The notes under the pieces were generated by a model. The model made no database searches. It worked only from the letters and a program-made list of their open reading frames with translations, and was not told where the DNA came from. The position numbers and the translations under genes are program-made. A stretch of DNA of 38,897 bases from a virus: positions 1 to 38,897 of the IMG/VR virus record IMGVR_UViG_3300007960_003557; one strand, written 5' to 3'. Shown here one piece after another: positions 1,458 to 33,900 of the stretch. Positions within the stretch are counted from its first letter, which is position 1, and every line of letters starts with the position of its first letter.

Positions 1458-2039
1458 TTACTTATAATCTAAATTACAATAAAGTATAATTTCTTCTATA
1501 CAAGTATTGTCATGTACGGATAGTGCGTACTGTATAAAATTGCTAACATCATCTAATCGTATTCCGTTGCCTGTCCAATTTGGCCTGCTACGACTTAGTT
1601 CTGTGTCTAGTCTATCAAACGTAATAAGTGTAGTACCAAATGGTACAATGTTTTGTTTAAATGCCTGAGTACCTTGCTTACTGGCATGTGCTAGTGCGGC
1701 CTTGCTTACCCTATATGTTTCCCAGCGTGGCTCAGGTACAACAATACTCTGCTCGCCAATACTGCCTATGTTAAAGATGTACCCTGTCTTGTTATGTTCT
1801 TTCCATACGTCGTACATACGCAAGTATAAGTTTGTTTGACCAAAGTTAGCCCAAGACTCTTGCGGTGGTCCATCAAATGCATTGTTTACAACTACATCAT
1901 AGTTTAAACTGCGAACAGCAATATCGTTAATATCTTTTGTAATATCAAACCCTGTGTTTCTGCTAACACTGTCTGCCCCAAACTTTTCTACTAGGTGTAG
2001 CCCTAATCCTCTGTTACCGCCTGTTACTAACATTTTCAT
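1458..2039 (-). CDS. Short-chain dehydrogenase/reductase (SDR)
   Basis: A 193-residue classical SDR, compact for the family (usually about 250). TGGNRGLG at residues 6-13 is the nucleotide-binding TGxxxGxG motif, NNA at 52-54 stabilises the central sheet, S93 (in IGSIG) and Y109-x3-K113 form the catalytic set. It should therefore oxidise or reduce a hydroxyl/carbonyl group with NAD(P)(H). Its ATG overlaps the TGA of the upstream radical SAM/SPASM gene by four bases. The position inside a run of radical SAM enzymes suggests it acts on the same small molecule, sugar or modified side chain. The substrate-binding loop after YxxxK is short, so the substrate may be unusual; this last point is inference. 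Confidence 0.85.
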   Translation of the reverse strand: MKMLVTGGNRGLGLHLVEKFGADSVSRNTGFDITKDINDIAVRSLNYDVVVNNAFDGPPQESWANFGQTNLYLRMYDVWKEHNKTGYIFNIGSIGEQSIVVPEPRWETYRVSKAALAHASKQGTQAFKQNIVPFGTTLITFDRLDTELSRSRPNWTGNGIRLDDVSNFIQYALSVHDNTCIEEIILYCNLDYK

Positions 2040-3145
2040 CTACGATTGCCTCCTTGGTCCCATACTTTTGTTAAACGTTTACCGCAGGTCATTGCACATT
2101 CAAATAATCGTTTACCTGTAAAACTGTTGTGCAGGTCCTGCCAAAACTGATTGCGGAAAATGTCCGCTAAACTATTGTTTTTAATAGATAAATTATCTAA
2201 TCCATACTGCTCTAAATACTCTCTAACTTGATTAGGCGTTCCACTAAGTGCATTTGCTCTCGGCAGTGCATCTGTATCGTGAAATCTCAAATCATACAAA
2301 TTATGATTAAAGAAATTACAAGGCAGTACAACACCCTCAGCGTTAACTGCTACCTTGTTGCCTACTTCAGCATCGCACTGTATCTCTGTCTGCTGAAAAT
2401 ATTCTTTAATGTCGGGGTATTCTGTTTTTAATTTAGTCAATCCCATCATACTGCGGTTTCTGTACTGTTCTTCAGAAGGCAGTTCTAAGTGGTATGCTAA
2501 ATCGTCCTTGCTATTATACACAGGCCATGTGTCAAGTTCAACCAAGTTTTTGTGATCAAAGAATCTTCCTGTGTTACGTACTAATATGTTAAAGAAGCCG
2601 TAGTCCTCTGCTAACTCTCTTGCTATAGAAACTTGATGTTCGTTGTGTTTAAACACAATATAGTTCCACTGCGCACGACCACCGCGATCAATAAACGCTC
2701 TAGCATTACGCATAACTTTATCATAATCTACATTTCTACGATACAGTCCTAGTGTATCTCCTACACCATCTATGCCAAAGTCTATTTGTCCGTAGCCGGC
2801 CATTATGTCTGCTACTTCTTGCCAGTAGTCCTCGTCGTGTACACCACCATTGGTATGAAAGTACAACCACAGTGTTGGACTCTTACTTCTGAAAGTTCTT
2901 AATATGTCTAAGAACTTAGGATGCATAATAGGGTCACCGTAACTGCCACAAAAGAATACTTGACGTAGACGTTCGCATAAGTCTTGGGGGAATGCACGAT
3001 CTAATACATCAGCATCTAAGTGTAATAATGGCATGTGTGGATTCTTACCATAACCACAGAGATTACGTGGACATTGCGGACAAGCCGCATTGCAATATGT
3101 GGTTATTTCAATTTGATATTCGTCTACTGTGTTGTATGTTAACAT
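2036..3145 (-). CDS. Radical SAM protein with SPASM-like C-terminus
   Basis: A 369-residue radical SAM enzyme. C18, C22 and C25 (TYCNAACPQC) form the CxxxCxxC cluster motif very near the N-terminus, with C30 close by. The region FFCGSYGDP (64-72) sits where the glycine-rich SAM motif is expected. C-terminal cysteines C257, C276, C350 and C354, with the hairpin NAEGVVLPC (268-276), look like a SPASM/twitch auxiliary cluster. Family members with SPASM domains modify peptides or proteins (for example RiPP and sulfatase maturases) or small molecules. The start ATG overlaps the stop of the upstream B12-type enzyme (TAATG). No precursor peptide gene is visible nearby, so the substrate is unknown. 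Confidence 0.85.
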   Translation of the reverse strand: MLTYNTVDEYQIEITTYCNAACPQCPRNLCGYGKNPHMPLLHLDADVLDRAFPQDLCERLRQVFFCGSYGDPIMHPKFLDILRTFRSKSPTLWLYFHTNGGVHDEDYWQEVADIMAGYGQIDFGIDGVGDTLGLYRRNVDYDKVMRNARAFIDRGGRAQWNYIVFKHNEHQVSIARELAEDYGFFNILVRNTGRFFDHKNLVELDTWPVYNSKDDLAYHLELPSEEQYRNRSMMGLTKLKTEYPDIKEYFQQTEIQCDAEVGNKVAVNAEGVVLPCNFFNHNLYDLRFHDTDALPRANALSGTPNQVREYLEQYGLDNLSIKNNSLADIFRNQFWQDLHNSFTGKRLFECAMTCGKRLTKVWDQGGNRR

Positions 3146-4593
3146 TATCGGCCTTTAAGGCTAGCCAAGATACTTAAAAACTCGTCATGCACTCTTGGTT
3201 GATTATAGTTTAATTTTTTACTAGCGTAATGTAGTTCTAGTCTACGGCGTATACGTTCTTCATATGTATTGGTAGGATTTGCTGGAGTAGTCCATTGTGC
3301 CTTACCGTAAACTTCTGTATCATTTTCGCCATCAATGATTGGCAACGTATGTCTAAATTTAGTGTCTAAAGGACTGCCCGGGAGAATTCCTGTAGTGAAT
3401 CCCCATCGTATTAATTTTATTACTTTGGCTAGTCCGTACTTTTGATATTTTTCTAAATAGATTAAGTTTGTTTTGTGGTCCTCGATGGTCTCTGTAGGAT
3501 ATCCGACTTGCATTAGAAAAGTATTTTTAATTCCATACTTACCACAGGCATATAAATGAAAGTCTATATCTTCATTTGTAAACCTTTTGCCCATATGATA
3601 ACGCACAGGCTCACTAAACGATTCAATGCCTACAACAATATCAGTGCCACCTGCTTGACTCATTGCTCGATAATCATCTTCAGTAAATTGATTTGCTGGC
3701 CTGCAGATAAAGTCTCCTCTGAATGTTAAATCTTTGAGGCTTGGATATTTTTTCTGCGCATCAACAAGTAGATAATTTAACTTTTTAAATTCAGTTAAAC
3801 TTCCATTGATTAGATTGTCAGTAAACTCAATGTGCATCGAATTGTACTCTAAATGGTGCTCTAGTATTTCGGCAAAAATATGTTCTGCTGTTCTAAATCT
3901 AAACTTATCCCAAATATGTTTAACATCGCAGAACGTGCAGTCCCTAACACAACCTCTACTACCTGTTATGTATGTGCCAATTACACCTGTATGTTGGTAG
4001 TGCTGTGGTAATATCTTATCATAACAGGCAAATGGGATAGTACTTAAATTTGAAACTTGATGTTTTAAATTAGTATTCCTCCAACTGTCGGGATTAAGAA
4101 TAAATTCTTTAAAACTTTCTTCTGCTTCACCAAGAATATAAGCATCAATTACGTTACGCTCTAATGCAACTTTATAAAATGGCTGTCTATTATTGTCAGT
4201 ATCTAAAAAGTCTGTGCCATGCCCGCCAATAATAATTTTACTGTCAGGATATACTTGCCGCAGTATAGGTAATACCATGTGCGCACTGCGTAATGTTTCG
4301 TAGGTAAAAAGACTTACGGCAACAATACCAAACTGTTGTTTTGGTAACTGTGATGTAACTAAGTCTTTGAATCCTTGTATTAATTTAGGATCACATTCGT
4401 TAGAAAAATATCCTACATAATTCTGAAACTCGCGCCATTGAGCCAATGTTGAGGCCTGGATAGTCTGCAGATTCAAGTCAGCAACTTCGTAGTCTATACC
4501 AACACTCTTGCAGATACCAGCAAGTCCAGCAATAACTGCTGGTGCTCTTTCTGCATCCTGTCTTGGCAAATTAACTAGTAATACTGTATCCAC
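3145..4593 (-). CDS. B12-binding-domain-type radical SAM protein, copy B
   Basis: A 482-residue protein laid out like the cobalamin-domain radical SAM enzymes (BchE/methyltransferase type). The N-terminal Rossmann-like domain (about 1-165) contains IIIGGHGTDF near 120-129. It is followed by a radical SAM core with C215, C219 and C222 (GCVRDCTFC). The classical DxHxxG cobalamin ligand motif is not seen, so B12 binding is uncertain. The family commonly methylates unreactive carbons or rearranges rings. It starts with GTG, 23 bases inside the end of the preceding small gene; AGAAAG lies just upstream. It is paralogous to the gene at 5637-7136 (shared SRGCVR-CxFCD core and GxPTET segment). Confidence 0.85.
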   Translation of the reverse strand: MDTVLLVNLPRQDAERAPAVIAGLAGICKSVGIDYEVADLNLQTIQASTLAQWREFQNYVGYFSNECDPKLIQGFKDLVTSQLPKQQFGIVAVSLFTYETLRSAHMVLPILRQVYPDSKIIIGGHGTDFLDTDNNRQPFYKVALERNVIDAYILGEAEESFKEFILNPDSWRNTNLKHQVSNLSTIPFACYDKILPQHYQHTGVIGTYITGSRGCVRDCTFCDVKHIWDKFRFRTAEHIFAEILEHHLEYNSMHIEFTDNLINGSLTEFKKLNYLLVDAQKKYPSLKDLTFRGDFICRPANQFTEDDYRAMSQAGGTDIVVGIESFSEPVRYHMGKRFTNEDIDFHLYACGKYGIKNTFLMQVGYPTETIEDHKTNLIYLEKYQKYGLAKVIKLIRWGFTTGILPGSPLDTKFRHTLPIIDGENDTEVYGKAQWTTPANPTNTYEERIRRRLELHYASKKLNYNQPRVHDEFLSILASLKGR

Positions 4594-5104
4594 GGCTTTC
4601 TAATAGTTGTTGAACTTCTGGTATAGCTGTACTTTCTTGATCGTACCCAAGAAATTTTTGTTCTGCTTCTGGGTCTGGATGTGTGCTGGCATATTGAAGA
4701 TCTAATTTTTTCATGTAATCGTAATACCAGGTAAAATAGTTTTTAGAAAACTTGTATATTAAACTGCCTACCTGATATAAACTGTCTGCATTTGGACGGT
4801 CTGCAGATTCAGTACATTCTGTAGTACATAATAAATGATGTACCAGTATGTCGTCAACCCAAATCTTTGTAATCTTCAGCCATTTGTCGGCAACAATCAT
4901 ACCGTCAACAACAATAGTATCGTGTACTGTTTTATTTTTGTAATGTATTACAACTTCGGTGTCAGTTTGATTATCTATAGAGTATTCTAATATTGTATGT
5001 TGTCCTAGAATCTGAGATGTGACTTGTTCACCGTTTATATCAACTCCAACACGTGGACCCATGCCACCAACTAGTCCGCACTCTATTTCAAATGCAATCT
5101 TCAT
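4571..5104 (-). CDS. Small beta-rich protein, copy B (partner of B12-type radical SAM)
   Basis: A 177-residue protein of unknown function. The first 95 or so residues are beta-rich with no signal peptide or membrane segment. They align with the neighbouring 178-residue gene: both share HY..KT..D, then a DG.I..DK block and an I..I..D.I block. This fold pattern resembles calcium-dependent carbohydrate-binding beta-sandwiches, but that is a resemblance only. The C-terminal half (about 96-177) differs from its paralogue and is rich in aromatic and charged residues. ATGA overlap with the upstream paralogue and a 23-base overlap with the downstream enzyme show tight coupling. It may recognise or present the substrate of the radical SAM enzyme next to it. 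Confidence 0.6.
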   Translation of the reverse strand: MKIAFEIECGLVGGMGPRVGVDINGEQVTSQILGQHTILEYSIDNQTDTEVVIHYKNKTVHDTIVVDGMIVADKWLKITKIWVDDILVHHLLCTTECTESADRPNADSLYQVGSLIYKFSKNYFTWYYDYMKKLDLQYASTHPDPEAEQKFLGYDQESTAIPEVQQLLESRGYSITS

Positions 5105-5637
5105 AAGTCTGGCATGTCCTTGAAAAAGTTTTTAGCATCCTCTAATATTTGTTGACTGCTTTTAAATATTGTATTGTCTAACTGTGGTCCTTGTTTACGC
5201 TCTCGTATTACCCATTCAGTAAATGGAGCAAAGAATCTATAACGCCAAGTGCCATTATGTCCAAGATATAGATTAGGACATATACTTTCTGGTAGTTCCT
5301 GCATGTCCTCTACATAACTTAAACTGTACACGGGCCAAAACTCCCCTTTGTGTAGTTCTCTATCAGTTAATGCTATACCGTCAATGGTTATTGTGTCTAT
5401 GTTTACAAACTTGTCTACTAGAATACTACCATCCTTGTCTAGTACGTGATCCTGATCTGTTTTACCATAGTGTACAATCTTTAATTCGTGCTCGCCATCG
5501 TTCAAATCAAACTGTCTTGAAAACTTTTCAACAGCAGGACCTTCGTATAGAACAACATAGTCGTCTATTAATATCTTTATGTTAGGCATTCCCAACTCAC
5601 TGCCTATGGTAAATCCGATATCTAAACTGATCTGCAC
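5101..5637 (-). CDS. Small beta-rich protein, copy A (partner of B12-type radical SAM)
   Basis: A 178-residue protein, paralogous in its N-terminal half to the next gene. It has GMPNIKILIDD near residues 16-26, GEHELKIVHYGKT about 48-60, then a DKDGSILVDK block, all with alternating hydrophobic residues typical of a beta-sandwich. The C-terminal part holds GEFWPVYSLSY and HNGTWRYRF, aromatic-rich motifs that could form a ligand surface. It uses a GTG start that overlaps the TAG of the upstream enzyme (TAGTG). No enzyme motif is recognised. Order is enzyme A, small A, small B, enzyme B, so one small protein may serve each enzyme. Function unknown; carbohydrate or substrate binding is a guess from the fold pattern. 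Confidence 0.6.
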   Translation of the reverse strand: MQISLDIGFTIGSELGMPNIKILIDDYVVLYEGPAVEKFSRQFDLNDGEHELKIVHYGKTDQDHVLDKDGSILVDKFVNIDTITIDGIALTDRELHKGEFWPVYSLSYVEDMQELPESICPNLYLGHNGTWRYRFFAPFTEWVIRERKQGPQLDNTIFKSSQQILEDAKNFFKDMPDL

Positions 5638-7136
5638 TAATGTATAACTCCTGCTAGTCTGTTCAGTCTGGTTGTGTAGTTGTCCATTAACAGTTTAAGT
5701 TGATCATCACCCTTCCAGAATGTATAGCCTAATTTTGTAGCATACTCTTGTGCTTCGATCCTGCGCATGATACGTTCTTTGTATGTTAACGATGGATTAG
5801 TTTCGCAACGCCAGTCTGGGCCATGGGGTCTGTTACCGTCGATGCCTACAATGTTTAGTTTAGAGTATTCTGTCCATATAGGCGAGCCTTCTTCGATAGT
5901 AAGCGTAGTACCTAAGTTAACACCAATGACAGTACCGTCTGCAACATAAGGCTGATAACGTTTTAACATTGCCAGTGTTTCGTCAAAATCTTCCCTAGTT
6001 TCTGTAGGGAAGCCCACAATTAATAACAGATATACAGTAACACCATAACGACTAAACATACGCATGTTGTAATCTAGATCTGCGTTATCAAATCCTTTGC
6101 GCATATCCAGTTTAACACGATCGCTACCAGACTCTACACCAATTACCATACACTCTGCACCAGCGGCGCCCATTAGCATAAAATCTTCTTCGGGCATCAT
6201 GCGCTCACTGCGCACAATATAATGACTGCTATACTTAAAGTGTCTTTCTGGTAAGTTATTTTCTTTATAATAGTTTACCAGATTCTGATTAAACAGTTTA
6301 AAGTCTTTTACACTACCATTGCAGAGTGCGTCATGAAAGAAAAAGTCTTTTACTTTATATTGTTCGTAGTAGTGTATAAGCTCATCGCTTAGTCGTGTAC
6401 CGTTTTTGTATCTAAATTTTCCGTGCCATGTGGGTATGTCACAGAATACACAATTTCTAACACAACCTCTACTAGTTTCTGCTGGCAGTACACCTTGTTC
6501 ATACCCACTATGATACCTAGTAATGTCAAAATCACTGAAGTCCATAAAACTATGCGAGTTCACATCACTGCGATCAGCCATAGTGTCTGTGTCTATCCCG
6601 GGTACATCAAACCGTCCGTCGATTATAGCAGGAATAGTTGTTTCTGCTTCGCCACGTATCCAGTGTGCAATCAATCCTTTGTCTTTCATTTCGTGAGCAA
6701 ATACCGGCTTGCTACTGTAACTGCCATTTTCTTCTTTGGTCATACCTTGACCGCCAATAATTACAGGTATGTCGCTTTGTGTTTTCCACAGTGTTAGAAA
6801 GTCTCTAGTAAAGCGTTGTGCTTGCCATGTGAATACACTTATAAAAATATACTTAGGATTAAGTTGTTTTATTTGATCAGCCCAACCCTGCATCCATTCT
6901 GTGTAGGCCGTTTGCTGTTCTACGTCTAGTTCTTTTAAATGATTAAAGAAATAATCATCTATTGTGGAATATAGTTTTTCTGAATAACGACTTCTAAATT
7001 GGTCGTGAAAATCCAGGTTAATATCCAGTATACGACTGTCAAGTCCTTTACTTTTTATTATACCTTTTATAATAGCCGGAGCCGCACTTGGTCTTAGTGC
7101 CGCTACTCGGGGAACAGTGAGTATTACAGCAAACAT
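5637..7136 (-). CDS. B12-binding-domain-type radical SAM protein, copy A
   Basis: A 499-residue enzyme. The N-terminal Rossmann-like region (about 1-180) includes PVIIGGQGMT (124-133) and no DxHxxG motif. The radical SAM core has C225, C229 and C232 (GCVRNCVFC). A later GFPTET segment matches copy B. It should use SAM and a [4Fe-4S] cluster for radical chemistry; a role for cobalamin is plausible but unproven. Its ATG overlaps the stop of gp46 (TAATG), so this accessory cassette is translated directly behind the recombination nuclease genes. The length agrees with stand-alone members of this group, and nothing looks truncated. Confidence 0.85.
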   Translation of the reverse strand: MFAVILTVPRVAALRPSAAPAIIKGIIKSKGLDSRILDINLDFHDQFRSRYSEKLYSTIDDYFFNHLKELDVEQQTAYTEWMQGWADQIKQLNPKYIFISVFTWQAQRFTRDFLTLWKTQSDIPVIIGGQGMTKEENGSYSSKPVFAHEMKDKGLIAHWIRGEAETTIPAIIDGRFDVPGIDTDTMADRSDVNSHSFMDFSDFDITRYHSGYEQGVLPAETSRGCVRNCVFCDIPTWHGKFRYKNGTRLSDELIHYYEQYKVKDFFFHDALCNGSVKDFKLFNQNLVNYYKENNLPERHFKYSSHYIVRSERMMPEEDFMLMGAAGAECMVIGVESGSDRVKLDMRKGFDNADLDYNMRMFSRYGVTVYLLLIVGFPTETREDFDETLAMLKRYQPYVADGTVIGVNLGTTLTIEEGSPIWTEYSKLNIVGIDGNRPHGPDWRCETNPSLTYKERIMRRIEAQEYATKLGYTFWKGDDQLKLLMDNYTTRLNRLAGVIH

Positions 7137-8905
7137 TATCCCATCTCAACATCATTACTATACGTGGTAAATCCGTTTTCTTTTACAACATTTAATACAT
7201 TGTTCACACGTCCTGCTAGTTCATCCTTGTGCGATACTAACCAAACACTACGATGCCCTTCACGTGCCATCTTTTTAAGTATTGCTAAACTGTTTTCAAC
7301 ACCGCTTGAATCCATACCAGTGTCAATAACTTCATCAATAAACAACAAGTTGATCTGTTGATATAAACTTTCCCATACATCACGGAATGCCCAACTTAAA
7401 CTTAATATAAGTCTGTTACGCTCACCCCTGCTCAAGTTATCAAAGTCAAGTTCTCTGCCCAGCTCTTCAATGGTAACTGTTAGATCATTATTAAACTTAA
7501 CTGTATGTGGCAAACCAATTCTATCTAAATATTGACTTAGACGCACATTCAAATAGGTTAAGTTTTGATCAATAATACGTTTACGTATAAAACTATCCTT
7601 GTTAGTTAACAGTTTTAACAAGAAGTCTTGGTGCTCACGTACATTAACTAACTCGTTAATATTGTTATACTCTATTTCCTGTACTGCCTGTGTTTCCATT
7701 TCAGTTATCTGTTCTGCATATGGATCTGTTTCTGCTAACTTTGCTTCAAGTTGATTAGTTAAGTTTTCGATTGTGTTTTTGTGGCCGATTGCGTCTTCTT
7801 TTGAATCATAGAACACATGGGGGATGGGTCCTGGGTCTCCAAGTTCCGCAAGTTGATCAACTTGAATTTGTACTTTTTCTTGACTTTCATGATACTGTGT
7901 TTCCGTTTCCTTTAGTATTTCTCGTTTCTTATCTAGTACTTCCTGATGTTTCTCATCGTGTATCTCTTGCCCACATGCATAACACTCATGTCGTTCTAGT
8001 TTTTCTATTTCTGATTTTAAACTGTTAATATGCTTTTCTAATCTAGCGGACTCCTGCTCACTAGATATCCGCCACTTGTTTACTTCTTTGATTTCATTGG
8101 ATATTTTGCTGTGTGTACTTAGTGCATCATGTGCCGCAAGTTCTGCTTCAATGTCTATACCGTCTAAACTTTCTAATGCCTTGGACAGTTTATCTATATC
8201 TTCTTGTTTTTTAGACTGCCATAGTGTTTGTCTACGCCTTGTTGCTTCGATCTGTTCCTGTACACGCTCGTTAGCTTCCTGTACAGCCTTAATACGATAC
8301 TCTTCTTCTGTGATTGCGTTTTTAGTTTCTTTTAATTGTTCTTTTAGTGCGTCTGCTTTTTCGCTGAGCATAGTGATACCCAGTAACTGCTCAATAATAG
8401 TACGCTGATCGTTTGCTCTGAGACTTAAGAAAGGTTCTGTATATGTATTTAGTGCTACAATATGCTTGAACATTTCGTGACTCATGTTCAACATACGTTC
8501 TATTTCTGCTTGTGTTTCTCTTGAATCGCCCTGCGACTCATCTGTGATCTCTTGCTCCTGTCCACCAATGTAAAATGCTACAGTGTTTGGCTTACGCCCA
8601 CGTTCAATTTTATAATCAACGCCAGCATTTTCAAATTCAATAGTGACTAACATATTCTTACCGTTAGTCTTGTTAATTAAATTGTCCTTGCGTATCTTTG
8701 TCAGTGCTTCGCCATACAGAGCATAACTTAATGCATTGATAATAGTAGTCTTACCTGTACCATTACGTGCGCCAGTGTCATCTCCACCCAAATCTAAGTT
8801 CTGTCCTAGTACTAGTGTTAAGTCACGACGATTAAAATGTACGGCTTGGGTAGCATTACCCACGCTCATAAAGTTTTTTACTGTTAGAGTTTTTACCTTA
8901 AACAT
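7136..8905 (-). CDS. gp46: Recombination endonuclease subunit gp46 (Rad50/SbcC-like ATPase)
   Basis: A 589-residue SMC-type ATPase. It shows a Walker A loop GARNGTGKT (45-53), long coiled-coil arms on both sides of a zinc-hook CYAC (C308, C311), the ABC signature LSRGER (491-496) and Walker B LLFIDE (520-525). With gp47 it forms the nuclease that resects DNA ends for recombination-dependent replication and takes part in host DNA breakdown. The ATG lies 12 bases after the gp47 stop. The length is close to T4 gp46. The gene's stop codon overlaps the start of the first radical SAM gene, which is an unusual neighbour for gp46. Confidence 0.95.
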   Translation of the reverse strand: MFKVKTLTVKNFMSVGNATQAVHFNRRDLTLVLGQNLDLGGDDTGARNGTGKTTIINALSYALYGEALTKIRKDNLINKTNGKNMLVTIEFENAGVDYKIERGRKPNTVAFYIGGQEQEITDESQGDSRETQAEIERMLNMSHEMFKHIVALNTYTEPFLSLRANDQRTIIEQLLGITMLSEKADALKEQLKETKNAITEEEYRIKAVQEANERVQEQIEATRRRQTLWQSKKQEDIDKLSKALESLDGIDIEAELAAHDALSTHSKISNEIKEVNKWRISSEQESARLEKHINSLKSEIEKLERHECYACGQEIHDEKHQEVLDKKREILKETETQYHESQEKVQIQVDQLAELGDPGPIPHVFYDSKEDAIGHKNTIENLTNQLEAKLAETDPYAEQITEMETQAVQEIEYNNINELVNVREHQDFLLKLLTNKDSFIRKRIIDQNLTYLNVRLSQYLDRIGLPHTVKFNNDLTVTIEELGRELDFDNLSRGERNRLILSLSWAFRDVWESLYQQINLLFIDEVIDTGMDSSGVENSLAILKKMAREGHRSVWLVSHKDELAGRVNNVLNVVKENGFTTYSNDVEMG

Positions 8906-21956: not shown

Positions 21957-24900
21957 ATGGCTGTAATTAAGACTCATAGTTTTCTACCTAGCATTTTTCA
22001 GACTGATACTAATAAAAAGTTTTTAAATGCTACACTTGATCAATTAGTTAGTGAACCAAACTTAATAAGAGTTGACGGGTACATTGGTAGAAAATTAGCA
22101 CCTTCATATAAGTCGACGGACAGTTATGTCAGCGAGCCATCAACAGATAGACAAAATTATCAATTGGAGCCTGGTGTTGTAATTCAAAACTCAGTAACAA
22201 AACAAATATCTTTTGCAACTACTTATCAGGATACACTTAACAGAATTGGCTATCATGGCGGATTAACAAACAATCACAATAGATTGTTTGATAACGAATT
22301 TTATTCTTACGATCCAAAAGTAGATCTTGACAAGTTTATAAATTTTAGTCAGTACTACTGGTTACCACAAGGTCCAGACAGCGTATTGGTCAGCTCAAGC
22401 AATGTGCCTAGAGAAAAGACTTATACAGTTACATACAATACTACTAATAACGAATATATTTTTACTGATAATAATAATATTCCAAATCCCAAAATAACAC
22501 TAGCTAGAGGTGGAACTTATAAGTTTATCATTGACGAACAAAATAACAATTTTTGGTTACAGACTAAGCCGGGTATCAGTGGTACAGATCCCGACAGACC
22601 TAACCTAACAACAAGAACAATTCTTGGCGTTAACAACAACGGTGAAGATCAAGGTACAGTAACATTTAAAGTGCCACTAGAAGATGCACAGGTTAGATTT
22701 ACTGGAATGACCATTAGTGGTAACGCTGATTATGCAACTAATTTAGCCTTCAGTCAGGTAATCGGAGCAAAGCCACAAGACTTAATTGATTTATACGGTG
22801 GCATTGATGGACCGGTGCGCTATCTTGATGGGACTACTGTAGCGTTTATTAATCTTGCTTATATTGATGACCAGTTCTGGGTAAACACCCAACGTACAGT
22901 TGATGGCGTAGCATATTTTGATCAAAGCAACCTTGTAACAATGGCAGAGCGTACCAGTATCTATACCATTAGCCTACAGCCTGACTCCAATGGCGACGAT
23001 CGTATTTTGCTATTTCCGGTTACTACTGTAGCCGATGAAACAAAGATCCGCGTTGTAGGCGGCGAAGCAAATGCCGCAAAAGAATACTATAAAAGACTTA
23101 ATGTATTCAACGAAGTACCACCTATTACGGCTAACCTTCCAGTACTATACTATCAAAGTGGCAGTGATCCAGATGCTGTTGGATTTATTAGAATCATTGA
23201 CACAGAAAGCCATACAATTGACCCTGATATAGAGATATTAGGAAAAATTAATTATACAAGTCCAAACGGTATAGTGTTTACTAACGGGCTAAAAATTAGA
23301 TTTGATACTAGTGTAGTGTCAGCATATCAAAATAAGGATTATTATATAGAAGGAGTTGGAACTGCTATTAGACTAATTGACGCTGATCAGCTAATAGCAC
23401 AAGAAGACATTAACAAGAGTTTTATTGTTGACGGCGGAACAGGATATGCGATTGGCGACAAACTTGCGGTTGTTGGCGGCACTTACACAGAACAAGCTAA
23501 GGTTTACGTTGATACCATTGACGCTAATGTTGCTACTGCGTCAGGAACAATAAATTCGTTTACTGGGGCACTCACTGAGATAGAAGTAGTTAATGGTGGG
23601 TCAGGGTACTTGAGTGCACCAGATGTTACTATCAGTCCGGCACCTTTTGGTGGAACAAATGCAACTGCTTCTGCTACAGTTACTAATGGAGTTGTAACTG
23701 CTATTACAATCACTAGTGGTGGTAGTGGATATGATACTATACCATCTATTACCATTGACGATCCTGAATCAGGGCCAATTACAGGTTTTAGCGTATATCG
23801 TAGAGGAAAGTATTCTGTATTACCTACTAACAGTGTTGAGGTTACAGGTGGCACAGGATCGGGTGCTAGATTGGAGATTTATCTCCAACCAATGGATGCA
23901 AACTATGTAACTATCAATAGATCTAGTTTAGACAGCAACCCATGGAGTAGATCAAATCGTTGGTTCCATTTGGATGTGTTGTCTAGAACAGCAATTTATA
24001 ATTCTACTGATGTTGTTTTTAACCAGACTCAACGAGCACAACGACCAATTATAGAATTTAAAGCAGATTATCAATTATACAATTCTGGTGCAGTTGCGAA
24101 AAAACATGTTGACCAACTTGACACTACTATTACAAATGCATTTACTCAAGTAAATGGTATTGTATGTATTGATACTGAAAAGTTAACTGTTGGTAGTTTA
24201 ACTTTGTTTGACGGCGATAGAATAATTTTTGCGAACGATGTTAATAATAATGTAAGAAATAAGATATACGATTTTAGTATTGAATTAGCAAGTGAGAGTC
24301 CTTCTGATTTATATAAAGCATATCTAGTAGAAGCCACAGATGCAATAGTCGAGCAAAGAAACACAGTGTTAGTTTTGTCTGGCACTAATGGAGGGAAACA
24401 GTGGCATTATAACGGCACATCCTGGACTACTTCACAGATTAAGTCACAATCATTTCAAGAGCCATTATATGATCTAATAGATACTAGTGGAGTTAGTTTT
24501 TCGGATACAACAACATACAACGGAAGTGTTTTTTCTGGGTCAAAACTGTTTGCATATCGCAGAGGCACAGGAAGTAACGATGCTATATTAGGGTTTCCGT
24601 TAAGTTATAAAAACTTTGCCAACCTAGGTGATATTCAATTTGACAACAATTTTGATAGCGAAACTTTTACATATTTGTTAAGCAGTGGAGATATAGAAAC
24701 CAAAAAGCACAACAGTGGTTATCTACAAAAAAATATTTCAGTGACTGAAGTAGCACGTGAAAATATTTGGGCCATTAATAAAAACTTTAGTAGACAATAT
24801 CAGGTTTACAATTTTACCTATACTGGTGAATCAAATTTATTTCCAATTGATGCTTTACCGGACACCAGTCTCAATCAACCAAACATTAAAGTTTTTGTTA

Positions 24901-27900
24901 ATAACCAAACAATAGATTCAACAAATTTTGCCACAACACAGGTTGTTGATAGATATGCTATTTTAGTAAATTCAGAAATACTTACTGTTGGCGATGCAAT
25001 TTTTGTTGCTGTGTTTAATCAAAATGCTGTACAAAATAGTGCGTACTACGAAGTACCTAAGAACCTAGATATAAACAGTCTTAATAAGAATTTGTCTACA
25101 TTAACCTTAGGACAAATGCGTAACCATTTGATTACATTAAAAAATAATGCATTAAATGTAGTAGGTAGTGTTCCTGGCAACAGTAACCTAAGGGACATAA
25201 CTTATAGTAACAATGGTGGAAGTATATTACAGCATAGTTCGCCAGCTATCTATAGTAACTTATTTTTAAATCACCCAACAATGAACTTTGTTGATGCTAT
25301 TAGCTTGGCTAATAGAGAATATACAAAATTTAAAGATAAGTTCTTAGAATTGTCTGCAAATCTTGAAATAGATCTTAATGATATTTCAGGAAGTGTTGAT
25401 GCTATTATTAATAAGATTCATGAAGTAAAGAATGAAAGTTTCCCTTGGTACTACAGTGACATGGTCCCGCATGGAACAACAGACAGAGTTGAGCTTCCAC
25501 CCTATGAGATATATGATCCAGAGTTACTAACGTACGAGATAACTAGAATATTCGATGATACAACTCCTAGTAACAAGGCTGTATTTGTTTATCTGACTAG
25601 AAGAGCAAACAATGTAACTACTAAAGTGTTGTTAGTTAAAGACAGAGACTACACATTTAATAAAGATCGTCCTGCTATTACTTTTACTAGTAGTTTTAGA
25701 TTACTTTTTAATGACAAGATTAATATTGTTGAATACAATAACACCGACGGAAGCTGGGTACCAGAAACTCCAACTAAGATGGGTATGTTCCCTAAATTCT
25801 ACCCAGAGAAATATACAGATAACACACTACGTACTCCGGTTCCTGTAATACAAGGTCATGACGGAAGTTTGACTCCTGCATTCAACGACTTTAGAGATGA
25901 TTTGTTAATTGAACTTGAGCGTAGAATTTACAACAACATTAAAGTTAACTACGATATTAACACATTTAATTTACATGATTATATTCCTGGTAAATTTAGA
26001 CCTACTGATTATACAAGACAAGAATTTAACCAGATAATAAGTCAAAAATTCTTAGCATGGGTAGGCACAAATAGACTAGATTTTTCTACTAACACACATT
26101 TCAAGTCAAGCGACCCGTTCACTTACAATTACAAAAACTTTACTGATATTATCAATGGTGAAAGTTTGCCAGGAACATGGCGATCGGTCTTTAGACATTT
26201 TTACGATACAGATCGTCCGCACACACATCCTTGGGAAATGTTAGGTTTTAGTCAAAAGCCAAGCTACTGGGAAGATCGATATGGTCCTGCACCATATACA
26301 GGTGGTAACAATGTATTATGGAGTGACCTGAGTCTTGGTTATATTCACGACGGTGAACGTGCTGGTTTTGACTTACGCTATCAACGACCAAATTTATCAC
26401 AATTTATCCCTGTTGACGAAGCAGGAAATCTACGTTCACCTAACGAAACACTAGTTACTGATTTTGATAGTGCTCAAGCTAATAGCAGTTATGCAGTTGG
26501 AGACATAGGTCCAGCAGAATTAGCTTGGAGACGTAGTAGTGAGTATCCATTTGCTGTTCATTTAGCATTAGCTCTTGCTAAACCAGGTCGATATTTTGGA
26601 CTCCAATTGAACACAAAGAATTACAAACGTAATTCTTGGACATCTCAATTTGAGATAAATCTTAAAGGACAACATTTAACTCCACAGGAAGTAATGGTTC
26701 ATGGTTATACTGATTCTGCTGGAACAGTTGAAAGAACAGCAGGATATATTAACTGGATTAGAGATTATGTTAAGAACTTAGGTGTAGGAGATGCATCAGG
26801 AACTATCAAGACAAACCTTAAACTATTGGATGTTAGACTAGTTTACAAAGTAGCCGGCTTCACTGATAAAAAGTTTATTGAACTGTTAGCAGAGCAGAAT
26901 AGTCCTACAAGCGTCACCGACAGTGTCCTCATCCCAGATGAAAATTATCGTTTAGAATTACACTCCGGCGCACCAGTTAGCAGAATTTCGTATAGTGCTG
27001 TAATTGTTGAGAAGAGTCCAAACGGATATTCAGTGAGCGGATACGATTTAACAAATCCATATTTTTCAATCATCCCAAGTGAGCCTAACAACAATTCTTA
27101 TGTTGTAACATCAGGCACACAACGAGGAGTGATTTATAGAGACTTTAAAAAATCACGATTTACGATTCCATACGGTTTTGAATTTAACACTAAACAACAG
27201 GTTGTTGATTTCCTAGTAGGTTATCAGAGATTTTTAATAGCACAAGGATTTATTTTTAAAGATAGAGACGTTGACCTACAAGAGCAAAAAGATTGGATAT
27301 TAAGTGTAAAAGAATTTTTACATTGGTCCGGACAAGGATGGCGTAATGGTAATATAATTGTATTAAGTCCAGTGTCATCAACTCTAAGAGTATATAACCA
27401 AAGTGCAGTAGTTGGTCACGTTGTTAATGATTCAACTCATAATCGTGTGTTAGACTTAAACTTTAAAGCAATTACTAAAAATAATTTTACAGTAAACAGA
27501 GAAAGTAGTCTGTTTACATTTACCTCAAATTCGCAACAAACAGTTGGATTTGCTGAATTTGGGATGATACAATACGAGCATCTTCTGATATTAGACAATG
27601 TTACAGACTTCAACGATGTTATCTATGTTCCTGAGTTAGGCAATAGACAGTATAGAATAAAATTAAGTGGAAGTAAAACTGGCTCATGGAATGGAAGCCT
27701 TGAATTGCCAGGATTTATATATAGTAGTGATAAGATTGATAGTTGGCAGGCCGGTATTGACTACCTTAAAGGTACTATTGTTCAATACAAAGAAAAATAT
27801 TATACTGCACTTAAAAACATTGTTGCCGCTTCAACGTTCCAAACTACCAGTTGGAAACAAATTGCTAAAGAAGAATTACGGTCTGGTATAATCAATAACT

Positions 27901-30900
27901 TTGCTACTAACGCACAGCAAGGTATAAACTATTACGATATACACAATCAGCCAGTTAACGAAGGAATACAATTATTCAGTAATGGGTTGATTGGATTTAG
28001 GGATAGAGATTATTTTACAAATCTTGGTCTCAGTACTACTACCCAGGCAAAGTTTTATCAAGGACTTATTAAGAATAAAGGTACGTTGAATGCTCTTAAT
28101 GCACTCGAAGGAGCAGTATTTGGCAATTTGTCTAGTGACATTGACTGGTACGAAAACTGGGCTGTTAGAGTTGGCGAGTACGGAGCGTTAGATTCTAATT
28201 ACTTTACAGAAGTAGAGTTAGACGAATCACTTTTTGATAGTAATCCAAGCTCACTTCAATTAATAGGCAATGGGGTCACAGAACAAGATGACATTATTGG
28301 TTATTCTGAACACGACATCTACAAGTCTTACGGCGTATATGATCCAAACTTCTTACGCACAGAAACATTAGATGTGCCCAACCCACTAAAACCTTTGCCG
28401 GTGGCTGGATTCGCCAATCTTGATGATGTTGATCGTACTTTATTTGATTTAAACAATTACGAAGATCTTTCATCGGTGGTTAACGAGATTCGCACAGGCT
28501 ATAAAATCTGGGTAGCAAGAGATTTTACAGAGAACTGGAATGTATACCGTGCAAGTATAATTCGTGGAATTCTTTTTGCGATGCGTCATCAAGTTGACGA
28601 TCAAGTTGAAGTTATACATAACAGAGATCACGGCCTTACAGTAGGTGATCTGGTTGTTATTAAAAATTTCGACACAAGATTTGACGGTGTATACAAAGTT
28701 AATACCGTTATAGATACAACACGTTTTACTATAACCTTAACACAAAATCTACAAAGTCTTGTTGATGAACAAGCAGTTGCAGGAACAGGTACGTTGTATG
28801 TGTTTACAACATTAAGAGTAGATATTCCAAGCCAGATACAAACAGTCTATCCGGTACAGGGATGGGTAGAGGGTGATAAAATATGGGTTGAAAATTTAGA
28901 TGCCAACGGTAACTGGGGAGTTTACAATAAAAACAGCCCATGGGTAAACAATGACAAATTGCAATTAGAACGTAGTAAGTTGTACGGCGATGATGACTTT
29001 GGTAGTGTAGTTGACCTTGATCCTGATTCAGGACAAGTTTTATATGTTGGTTCGCCGGGTTCGGTATTGGGTCGTGGGCAAGCCGCAAGCTTCTTAAGAT
29101 CTAGTACTAACACCTGGAGCTTTGCAACATCATTTTCTGCTAGTGCGAATGACAGAGTTAATAGTTTTGGTAAATCCATTGCTAATGCCGATGGAATACT
29201 AGCAGTAGGTGCTCCTGACAGTGTAAGTGGAACAGGTGCTGTTTTTATATACCGTAACGGCGAGCATCAACAAATAATTACACACCCCACAGGTGCCTCT
29301 ACTTATAAATTTGGGGAATCGGTGGCGTTGAGTAGGGATGGACTTTATCTTTATGTTAGCGAGCCTGGAAATGCTACAGTATATTGCTACGCAATTCAGA
29401 GCAGAGAAGTAGAATCAGAAACTATAACAGGTGACGGATTTACGGACACATTTACTCTTGGCTTCAGTTCCGACAATGCGATTGATTTGTTGGTTATACC
29501 AGTGTTAAAGACCGATAACGAAAAATTACCTACTATAGACTATACAGTTAGCGGCAACGATATAATTTTTGACGCAGGCGCTATTCCTGCTCTTCTTGAG
29601 AACATAAGCATTGTTAAGCGTCAGTTCTATTATAAACTAATTGGTTCTGTTACAGGACCTGCAGGCATCAACTTTGGTGTTTCAATTTCAACTAATCGTT
29701 ATGGTGATGTTCTAACAGTTGGTGCAAATGAGCGACAGGTTGATAGTGTTGAAAAAGAAGGTTCTGCTTATGTATACCATAGAACTATAACAGAATTTAC
29801 AACAGATGGTATTAGTTCAACTTATACAGCACCAGACAGCTTTAATACCAACTACTATAGAGTAACTCTCAATGGTACAGAAATGGTTGACGGCACGGAT
29901 TACTATACTGTGTCTCCTGCAAGTATACAGTTTGGCGAGTTTTCTGTTCCAACTATAGGACAAAAACTTAGATTTGAAACCAACCAGTTTGAGTTGGATC
30001 AAACAATAACAGCTTATAATCAAGGACTAATTGGGCAGAGATTTGGACAGAAAGTAGAACTCTGCGGATCAGGATGTAATTTATATATTACTAGCCCAGA
30101 ATACTTTACCAATACTTACACAAGAGGTGCTGTCTATAGATATCTCAATGTAGGCAGAATTTTTGGAGAAGTTGTAGGCGAATATAAAGTAGGTACTACT
30201 GTAACTACTCCTACAGTTACTCCGGGCCATGGAATGATTATTAATGATAGGTATGTACAATTTAGTTCATCATCACTTGCGCATGTAGTTGCACAAATTA
30301 ATGATGCAGATATTCCTGGTATAACAGCCGAGATTGTAGCCAACGGATCTACTAGCCAACTTAAAATAACCAGCGATGTAGTTGTGGCAAATGAAAAACT
30401 TGCAATTAAAACTGCAAGTGGTAGCACAGCAATAACTGATTTAGGATTAGATCTTTACAAGTTTGCGCAAATTATTACACACCCAAACAACGAAGGCGAA
30501 AAATTTGCAACTGGATTTGCACTATCGCAAGGTGTTGGTAAACTTGTCGTAGGCAGCGACGGTGGTGATGTTACTGTTGACACAACTTTTGATAAGTCAA
30601 AAACAGAAACCACATTTGACTCTGGTAGCACAACTTATGTTCTGTTAGTTGAAGATAGTGGTGCAGTTTATGTATACGATTTAATGGATAATCCGTATGC
30701 TACTCCTAATAATCCTTCATTATTTGCATACTCACAAAAATTAACTGGTACAGATTTACAAACTGGTTATAACTTTGGTTCTGACATAGCAATAGTTAAT
30801 AATATGATGGTAGTAGGTGCGGCCAGCGATTTTAATTTAGTAACTGGTGGCGGCAGTGCTTATTCATATTACAATGAGAGTAGTAAATCTGGATGGGAAC

Positions 30901-33900
30901 TACTTAGATATAAAGAGCCAAGGGTAGCTATTGATGCTATAAACTCTGCGTTTATATACAATAAGAGATCACAGACTATTTTTAATTATTTTGATATTTT
31001 AGATCCTGCTAAAGGGAAAATCTTAGGTATAGTAGATCAAGAATTGGATTATATAGAAGATTACGACCCTGCAAGTTATAGTACAGGTACCAGTGCTAAC
31101 ATAATTCTCAACACCAGCTTCTACTGGAGTGATCAACATGTTGGCAAAATATGGTGGGATACCAGTAAAGCAAGTTTTATAGATTATGAGCAAGGAACAT
31201 TAGCATATAGAGAAAAGAATTGGGGTGCATTATTCCCGGGAAGTAGTGTTAACATTTACGAGTGGGTGGAAAGCGAATTTTTACCAAGTCAATATGTTGA
31301 AGCAGGTGGTGACGGAATACCTAAGCACGAAGATGACACAGCATACACTATCGTTAACTCTGTTGATCCAGCATCTGGAATAATTGTACAAAAATACTAC
31401 TATTGGGTCAGTGGACGAACCAGTGTTGATGTTAATAAATCTTTAAGAACTCTTAGCACTAGCACTCTTGAAAAATACATTTCAAATCCTAAGGACCAGG
31501 GAATAGTATATCTGGCAGCTTTAGCACCTAATAGTGTGTCGGTGTTCAATGTTGCAAGTCGACTCTCGGCTAAAGATACAGTACTTCATATTGATACTAG
31601 TGTTCTTAGTAGTGATAACTTAATACACAATGAATATAGTTTAATACAACAAAATAATCCAACATCTATTGTGCCTACTAAGGTAATTAATAAACTAAAA
31701 GATAGTTTGATTGGAGCCGATGTAAGTGGTAGAGTAGTACCTGACCCAACTTTAAACCCACAAAATCAAATTGGTATATTAACAAGACCAAGACAAAGTT
31801 TATTTGTGAACAGGGTAGCGGCAGTAAAAGTCTTTGTTACAAAGTTAAATTCAATCTTGAAGAATCATCCTGTACTACTAATTAATAGTACTAAGAATTT
31901 GTATACTGAAGAGGCAAAACCAACAGAGTATGATGCTGAAGTTAACTCATTTACTGAAATATCTTATTTAGATACCACTGAGTTTGCAGATGGATACAAA
32001 CTATTAATACCTGTTGATACTCGCTATGACGGAAAATGGTCATTATATACATTCAACGGTGAAACTCGAGAGTTTGAACTTACTAAGGTACAGTCTTTTA
32101 AAACAGAGCTTTTATGGACACCAACTGATTGGTACGATAGTAGTTATGTTGATGGACACGATATTAACTATACCGTTAACACATATGGCGAAATACAAGC
32201 ATTAACATTAGCTGAAGATTATTATGTTAAAGTAAATGACGACGGGTCTGGGCGATGGTTAATCTATAGAATTAACGCCGATGCTACAAGAACATTGATA
32301 GCCGCACAGTCAGCAACAGTATCAGTTTCAACATCATTGTATGATCCTACAGTAGGAGGTACAGGATTTGATGCTTCTGTATTTGATGTTGTTGCTTTTG
32401 ATCCACAGTCTAATGTAGAATTGAGCGATATTTTTAATGCTGTATTTGACGAATTATTGACTGATAGTCTAGCTGTTGAGTTTAACAATTTGTTCTTCTC
32501 AATGGTTAATTATGTATTTGAAGAACAACAGGCACCAGACTGGATCTTTAAGACCAGTTTTATTGATGTTGTACACAATTTGAGAACACTTGATCAGATA
32601 CCAAACTACGTTAAAGATAACACAAGTTTCTACGAAGATTATATTAACGAAATTAAGCCATACAAAACTAAGGTAAGAGATTTCCAACCAACCTATACTA
32701 AGTTAGATGAAGCAACTGGAACATGGACAGATTTTGATGTCCCAGCAAGATATTTCTCAGCTGATGAGTCCTATAGATCGCCAAACATTCAAATTAGTTC
32801 CGAATCTACATATTTTGACGCAGATCTATATAAGCCTTACCGCGACAACTACAAATTAACTGTTGGCGAAATAATTGTTGGCAACGCTGGCGTTCGTTAT
32901 ACATTACCGCCAAACATTGCAATTACAGGCGGTGGTGGTAGTGGTGCTGAAGCAGTATCAACAGTTAATCCAGCTACTGGTACAATAACCAGTATTACAG
33001 TAACTAAAACAGGGTCAGGCTACACATCAACACCAACAGTTATTGTAAATGGTTTAGGAGAAGGCGGAACAGCATATCCGATAATGCGTAATGACGGAAC
33101 ACATCCTCATATGCTGGTTAGGTCTATAGATAGTACTATTAAATTTGATAGAATAACCTATTCAAGTAATGTAACACAATGGCAGGCTAATACAGCATAC
33201 GAAAATACTATCGTTGTTGATGGAAACAATGCTAATTGTTATGATTTAAATAGAATTGAGTATGATAGTTATATTGGAGTTGGGTCAGAGGATATAGATG
33301 TAACAGATCTATTCTTCAAGCCCGACGGTACAAAGATGTACGTCACTGGTAATAATACCGACACGGTATATGAATACAATTTAAGTACACCGTGGGAGAT
33401 TGACACAGCAAGTAATATTGCGATCGCTAATGTTTATACACAGGACTCTAGTGTACAAGGTGTTTATTTTAGAAGCGACGGCGAGCGTATGTATACCATT
33501 GGTATTAATACTGACAGTGTATACGAATATAGACTAGCTACACCATGGAGCGTAAACACAGCCGCTAATATTTCAGTTAAGAGTATTGTGAGTGAAGAGG
33601 CAAGTGCTCGCGCAGTTGAGTTCAACAACGACGGTTCCAAGATGTACATCTTGGGTACGTTAAGTGATACAGTATTTGAATATGATTTGACTGTACCTTG
33701 GTTAGTATCGTCGGCTTCTTATAGCTCTCGTAGCTTATATGTTGGCAGTGAAGAAAACATTCCAACAGGTATGCGATTTAGACAAGATGGTAAAGAACTC
33801 TATATTGTTGGACAACAATACAATAAGATATGGAGTTACGTTTTAACAACCCCGTTTGATGTAAGCACTGCAACAGTACATAATTCATCAGACTTAGAAA

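Follow-up and report, generated by a model that had tools for sequence, protein, structure and literature searches.

Two radical SAM enzymes and their small neighbouring proteins in a cassette of an uncultured T4-like phage

What has placed two large radical S-adenosylmethionine (SAM) enzymes and two small proteins on one strand of a phage genome in the order enzyme, small protein, small protein, enzyme? The question is raised by IMG/VR virus record IMGVR_UViG_3300007960_003557, analysed over its whole length of 38,897 bases (hereafter the window), which is a fragment of an uncultured, water-dwelling T4-like phage. The four genes, named R for the enzymes and S for the small proteins, lie on the minus strand and are transcribed in the order RB (5637-7136, 499 aa), SB (5101-5637, 178 aa, GTG start), SA (4571-5104, 177 aa) and RA (3145-4593, 482 aa, GTG start), with successive overlaps of 1, 4 and 23 nt. 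On the whole, and with somewhat more confidence than doubt, we favour the explanation that two R-S modules stand here side by side and that S is a substrate-recognition subunit within a radical tailoring cassette. This explanation rests on computed data, namely homology, obligate pairing, co-inheritance, natural fusions, predicted folds and the occurrence of S beside other enzyme types.

The enzymes and their small partners

Both R proteins are members of the radical SAM superfamily. RB and RA align at 30% identity over 483 columns (E 3e-54), each carries a CxxxCxxC motif (GCVRNCVFC in RB, GCVRDCTFC in RA), and they score 55.3 bits (1e-14) and 49 bits (1e-12), respectively, against Pfam Radical_SAM PF04055, above its cut-off of 29.5. 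Residues C225, C229 and C232 are invariant among 42 R homologues, and the conserved motifs F.D.L.NG and ERI.RR are peculiar to the R family. Both genes appear to be under purifying selection, since the ratio of nonsynonymous to synonymous substitution rates (dN/dS) is 0.04-0.06 for RB and 0.07 for RA in its one comparison, dS being saturated for most pairs.

The AlphaFold2 model of RB (pLDDT 93, pTM 0.90) retrieves TsrM, MgmA, AprD4, OxsB, CysS and TokK from the PDB with Foldseek (E 1e-12 to 1e-19), and its fold fits both the cobalamin enzymes TsrM/OxsB/MgmA and AprD4. With the cobalamin-dependent, class B-like enzymes (TsrM, MgmA, OxsB, TokK, CysS), R appears to share an N-terminal B12-binding-type domain, the radical SAM barrel and CxxxCxxC, and we assign RB and RA to this B12-binding-domain type. 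Unlike those enzymes, R has a dedicated S partner and motifs of its own and is phage-borne. RB stays far under every NCBIfam cut-off, its matches to PhpK (90 vs 600 bits, its best) and to the model of C-methyltransferases of ribosomally synthesized and post-translationally modified peptides (RiPPs; 74 vs 282 bits) being weak. AprD4 is the radical SAM diol dehydratase of the apramycin pathway, which acts on the aminosugar paromamine with the NADPH reductase AprD3 as its partner (PMC5461906). It resembles the present system in combining a radical SAM enzyme with a separate partner, and it gives the highest TM-scores to RB among the Foldseek matches (0.66/0.72), but its identity to RB is 14% and RB reaches 17 of the 500 bits of NF033070, the AprD4 model. 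The partners differ as well: AprD3 is a reductase whereas S is predicted to be a beta-sandwich, and the reductase of the window pairs with another enzyme, of the SPASM type.

The small proteins SA and SB are weakly related by pairwise BLASTP alone (39% over 36 aa, E 0.002). We therefore rely on profiles that are non-circular, each hidden Markov model (HMM) having been built from relatives of one protein only. The SA-only HMM matches SB at 6.7e-17 and the SB-only HMM matches SA at 4.6e-8, in each case as the sole other match among the 67 open reading frames (ORFs) of the window, and shuffling SA 2000 times gave no score above 16.6 bits, compared with 25.0 for SA itself. These profile comparisons argue decisively that SA and SB are homologous.

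Pairing of R with S extends well beyond the window. Wherever the contig is uncut (73/73 loci), RB has SB immediately on its 3' side, and SA stands immediately 5' of RA in 10 of 10; the genes usually overlap in both cases, although a few of the counted loci come from the same contig. A wider scan yielded 350 tblastn-confirmed viral relatives of R, from which 79 loci were kept (loci are cited here by L numbers). Among 190 R ORFs, 141 have S directly adjacent and three carry it in the same ORF: two fusions of 666 aa with S at 508-652 (L150/L152) and one of 664 aa with S at 504-654 (L177). Since the fused sequences are divergent, the fusions are not an assembly error. The S tree is congruent with that of R (Mantel r of 0.75 overall, with 0.88 and 0.91 inside two clades, 0/2000 permutations), the deeper position of the SA clade in the S tree being uncertain. 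The partnership is thus well supported, S being very probably a dedicated partner or subunit of the neighbouring R, and we infer physical contact within the R-S pairs of the window. Four proposals of the first-pass annotation are borne out by these data: homologous radical SAM enzymes, related small proteins, the order R-S-S-R on one strand, and one small partner for each enzyme.

Two variants were seen among the R loci. A small protein of 134-137 aa, missed by the S profile and possibly a degenerate S, precedes R at the usual place of S in L062, L141 and L178. R proteins of 586-600 aa with an additional C-terminal segment and no S occur in L155, L164, L165, L167, L168 and L170.

Origin of the mirrored order

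The first-pass annotation had explained the arrangement by a local mirrored duplication, in which one R-S pair would have been copied with its order inverted and the copies would have diverged into specific pairs. Such an event would account for RA/RB and SA/SB being homologous and adjacent, but it conflicts with the R tree of 73 non-redundant proteins. There, RA belongs to an S-upstream clade (26 rows, SH-aLRT 95) and RB to the S-downstream side, two deep clades defined by the position of S, with gene order changing 6 times over the tree versus 37 for shuffled labels. A sister relationship forced on the RA and RB lineages is rejected by the approximately unbiased (AU) test (p-AU 0.003). Being of the quick type and containing some long branches, the tree gives deep placements that are moderately sure. 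The order of the modules also differs between phages, being RB-SB.SA-RA in the window and in L001-L004 and SA-RA.RB-SB in L020, L030 and L031, with SA-RA alone, lacking RB-SB, in L076; the internal order of each module meanwhile stays constant.

Taken together, clade structure, AU test and variable module order lead us to reject a duplication in place, which we hold to be very improbable, barring long-branch effects that mislead both tree tests. As read from these sequences, the R-S-S-R mirror is the meeting of two old modules of different internal order, not an inverted duplication: it arises because an S-first module stands beside an R-first module.

Fold of S and candidate substrates

What might S do for its enzyme? 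The AlphaFold2 model of SB (pLDDT 90) is a beta-sandwich followed by C-terminal helices, and its top two PDB matches in Foldseek are the CBM60 structures 2xhh and 2xfd (prob 1.00, TMt 0.68/0.64, E 1e-3). Among 48 diverse S members, three likewise match CBM60 (PF16841), a family of Ca-dependent xylan-binding modules, at a best E of 0.005, and no other Pfam family is hit by more than one; the gathering score of CBM60 is reached by none of the 48, and SB itself has no match. In hhalign, S against 7 CBM60 domains scores 32.5 (prob 63%), whereas none of 60 column-shuffled controls exceeds 17.2; the domains came from the phylum of the genome of L084, CBM60 genes being found in 0/61 in the phylum of the genome of L081. 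The sequence profiles thus agree weakly, and independently, with a CBM60-like fold, while a PDB profile search with S returned chance matches only. A DRN-like DK motif aligns between the two families. S differs from CBM60 in standing alone or being fused to a radical SAM enzyme, in having GK/NK in place of ND, and in its additional C-terminal segment. It may consequently act like a binding module, and we do not file it as a CBM60 member.

S also accompanies enzymes other than R. It adjoins a twitch radical SAM enzyme in L016, L142, L147, L153 and L176 and a SPASM radical SAM enzyme in L149. In L059-L065 and L069 (L062 10020-12554) it is flanked by two related enzymes of 345/353 aa, which replace the SPASM enzyme and reductase unit described below. 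Those of L059-L065 resemble pyridoxal phosphate-dependent aminotransferases by motif; they have no Pfam or PHROGs match, and no radical SAM or Fe-S domain was detected in them. Such company is as expected of a shared recognition domain. Recognition elements of RiPP pathways (RREs) occur both fused and stand-alone. By analogy with these domains, the fact that several catalysts have S in common suggests that their substrates belong to one class. The likeness lies solely in the principle of one small domain common to several tailoring enzyme types (PMC7470986 as a general reference). S, unlike RREs, is predicted to be a beta-sandwich, and RRE-type families were matched by none of the 48 S members.

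We propose that RB-SB and SA-RA are two independent two-gene radical SAM modules, adjacent in a phage tailoring cassette whose other members are a SPASM radical SAM enzyme with a reductase and a split radical SAM/SPASM enzyme. Ferredoxin and SufE/SufT genes near some R-S pairs are in keeping with this proposal; L077 (6531-9949), for instance, has ferredoxin, SufE and a SufT-like FeS-assembly gene around its S-R pair, which fits Fe-S supply for the radical enzyme. Each S, a single CBM60-like beta-sandwich, would be an accessory subunit dedicated to its neighbouring R; it would recognize or hold the substrate while R performs radical SAM chemistry, possibly cobalamin-assisted, on an unactivated carbon. 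The substrate would be a sugar or glycan, either a surface polysaccharide of host or virion or a sugar precursor. We consider it probable that S is the substrate-recognition element. That the substrate is a sugar or glycan we propose tentatively; sugars and glycans are judged likeliest because the fold of S is of a sugar-binding-module type, and rank ahead of S itself and, further down, of DNA or nucleotides. Whether SA and SB serve two different substrates or positions is evenly balanced. A more speculative extension, which we think rather doubtful, is that S is a virus-enriched general recognition element, CBM60-like, that would recruit B12-type, twitch, SPASM and other enzymes to one class of sugar or glycan, as a glycan counterpart of the RRE.

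A small protein beside a radical SAM gene is also the classic RiPP layout, and S could in principle be the substrate, with R modifying one of its residues (protein C-methylation or RiPP-like maturation) and modified S as the active product. The weak scores of the R family with RiPP C-methyltransferase and PhpK-type models, the presence of MgmA, a protein glutamine methylase, among the closest folds to RB, and the invariant K59 and P18 of S are in keeping with this. Yet S is a fully folded, conserved beta-sandwich of 150-200 aa lacking a variable core peptide, the R-S fusions would make the enzyme its own substrate, and the S family adjoins several enzyme types; we consider this alternative unlikely. 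No precursor peptide with a leader and a variable core was identified, although a short unannotated peptide may lie elsewhere.

Adjacency, co-inheritance and fusion would fit any obligate subunit, and S could thus be a chaperone or stability factor for an Fe-S enzyme, assisting folding or the loading of cluster or cobalamin, rather than a substrate-recognition subunit. S does accompany other Fe-S enzymes. Against a chaperone stand the 345/353-aa proteins flanking S, the chromosomal R genes that do without S, and a fold typical of ligand-binding modules; we judge it improbable.

Known roles of phage radical SAM enzymes include 7-deazaguanine and thymidine hypermodification pathways. The cassette might hypermodify bases of phage DNA, or nucleotides, in which case the ligand of S would be DNA or a nucleotide intermediate, and genes for GTP cyclohydrolase I or PTPS/QueD-like proteins do lie near some S-first modules (L078, L112, L113). 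However, the fold of S resembles modules that bind sugars rather than proteins that bind nucleic acids, and no base-modification genes were recognized beside the RB/RA lineage, a weak negative given that the window is a fragment. We think this alternative quite improbable.

Returning to S as a recognition subunit of a sugar-tailoring enzyme, several observations weigh against it. S is missing beside about 15 R proteins of viruses and beside almost every chromosomal R gene, mostly in metagenome-assembled genomes (MAGs) of Bdellovibrionia, and the core chemistry therefore does not require it. (Several of these chromosomal genes adjoin other radical SAM genes; the S-R pairs of three MAGs, which may be viral, lie on short contigs of 7.7-18 kb.) The B12-binding domain PF02310 scores 19.3/15.2 bits for RB/RA, under its cut-off of 32.1, which bears on cobalamin-assisted chemistry. 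The likeness of S to CBM60 is modest by the Foldseek E value and hhalign probability given above. Moreover, the CBM60 site 'ND..DRN' is half kept in S, with the invariant K59 at ND and D75-K76 at D-R, and Ca-dependent sugar binding may therefore be lost. Glycan genes near the modules are thin, with one PHROG glycosyltransferase match.

The cassette, its distribution and significance

The two modules are part of a near-gapless minus-strand run. Directly upstream of RB lies a gene (7136-8905) read from its sequence as a recombination subunit, which we take from knowledge of T4-like genomes to be gp46-like. RA is followed in the same overlapping run by a radical SAM/SPASM enzyme (2036-3145) and its partner, a reductase of the short-chain dehydrogenase/reductase (SDR) type (1458-2039). 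Two overlapping genes (518-1448) then appear to encode the halves of a split radical SAM/SPASM enzyme, a short radical SAM core of 207 aa (825-1448) and a SPASM-like C-terminal half of 104 aa (518-832). A SegE-like GIY-YIG endonuclease (99-521; PF19835, E 4e-37) marks the far end of the cassette. The 104-aa half matches positions 192-252 of 278 of NF038073 (STM4011-family radical SAM, E 7e-7) and adjoins homologues of the 207-aa core in other loci, the split pair recurring in L001-L003, L030/L031, L034 and L044/L045/L057. Conversely, SPASM enzyme and SDR are joined in one ORF of 568-600 aa in six loci (L008-L010, L068, L136, L156), and in L141 an SDR directly follows R. Because S pairs with several enzymes and the SPASM enzyme is elsewhere fused to the SDR, the cassette resembles an assortment of two-part enzymes.

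Across 70-odd IMG/VR relatives, the position between gp46 and segE is the usual one for the cassette; gp46 adjoins RB or SA, and the SegE-like gene keeps its position, in most related loci. The ORF preceding RB in L005 (7600-8001) starts like a cupin, and its last ~17 residues are those at the end of gp46 (...VIKENGFTNYSNDVEMG); it looks as though the cassette, on relocating, took the 3' end of gp46 along. Another SPASM radical SAM enzyme is found, together with an SDR, a protein resembling Asp/Arg hydroxylases and proteins in which a 'TEKT.KP'-like motif is repeated, in a second variable region that separates gp47 from gp46 (L030 753-4069 and other loci). Elsewhere in the window, a single ORF of 4639 aa occupies 21957-35876 on the plus strand, in the baseplate/tail region. 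Judged by its gp6-like baseplate protein, the phage is closest among cultured ones to jumbo phages, namely Salicola SCTP-2 and the Pseudomonas PA5oct group (35-39% identity). A survey of pelagimyophages mentions, for their host-recognition clusters, cassettes of radical SAM genes (PMC7029224). Those passages, like our data, portray T4-like aquatic phages gaining such cassettes in variable regions; they name no partner protein or module structure, and the present cassette lies between gp46 and segE.

The R-S pairing recurs in many uncultured viruses and appears undescribed, neither the S family nor R-S pairs being found in the open-access literature, with subscription literature outside the search. 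A search of 50,697 phage records returned nothing for SB or SA and, for RB, only a partial 30% match to one Streptomyces phage (two records). Single-protein scans with SD (the S protein of L016) and the S protein of L081 found nothing new, and S is present in 0/291 genomes of the phylum of the Bdellovibrionota MAG, a search that had no positive control there.

Several hundred uncultured viral contigs carry the R family (350 in one scan), and most of the carriers examined have a dedicated partner named in no library searched. The S family provides a handle for finding R-S modules, and the natural fusions are a ready construct for structure and assay. A shared S leads one to expect a single class of substrate for the different radical enzymes. 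If S is a general glycan-recognition element, it would mark viral radical glycan-tailoring pathways; if the substrate is a surface glycan, these phages would alter sugars by radical chemistry, which bears on host recognition and superinfection exclusion.

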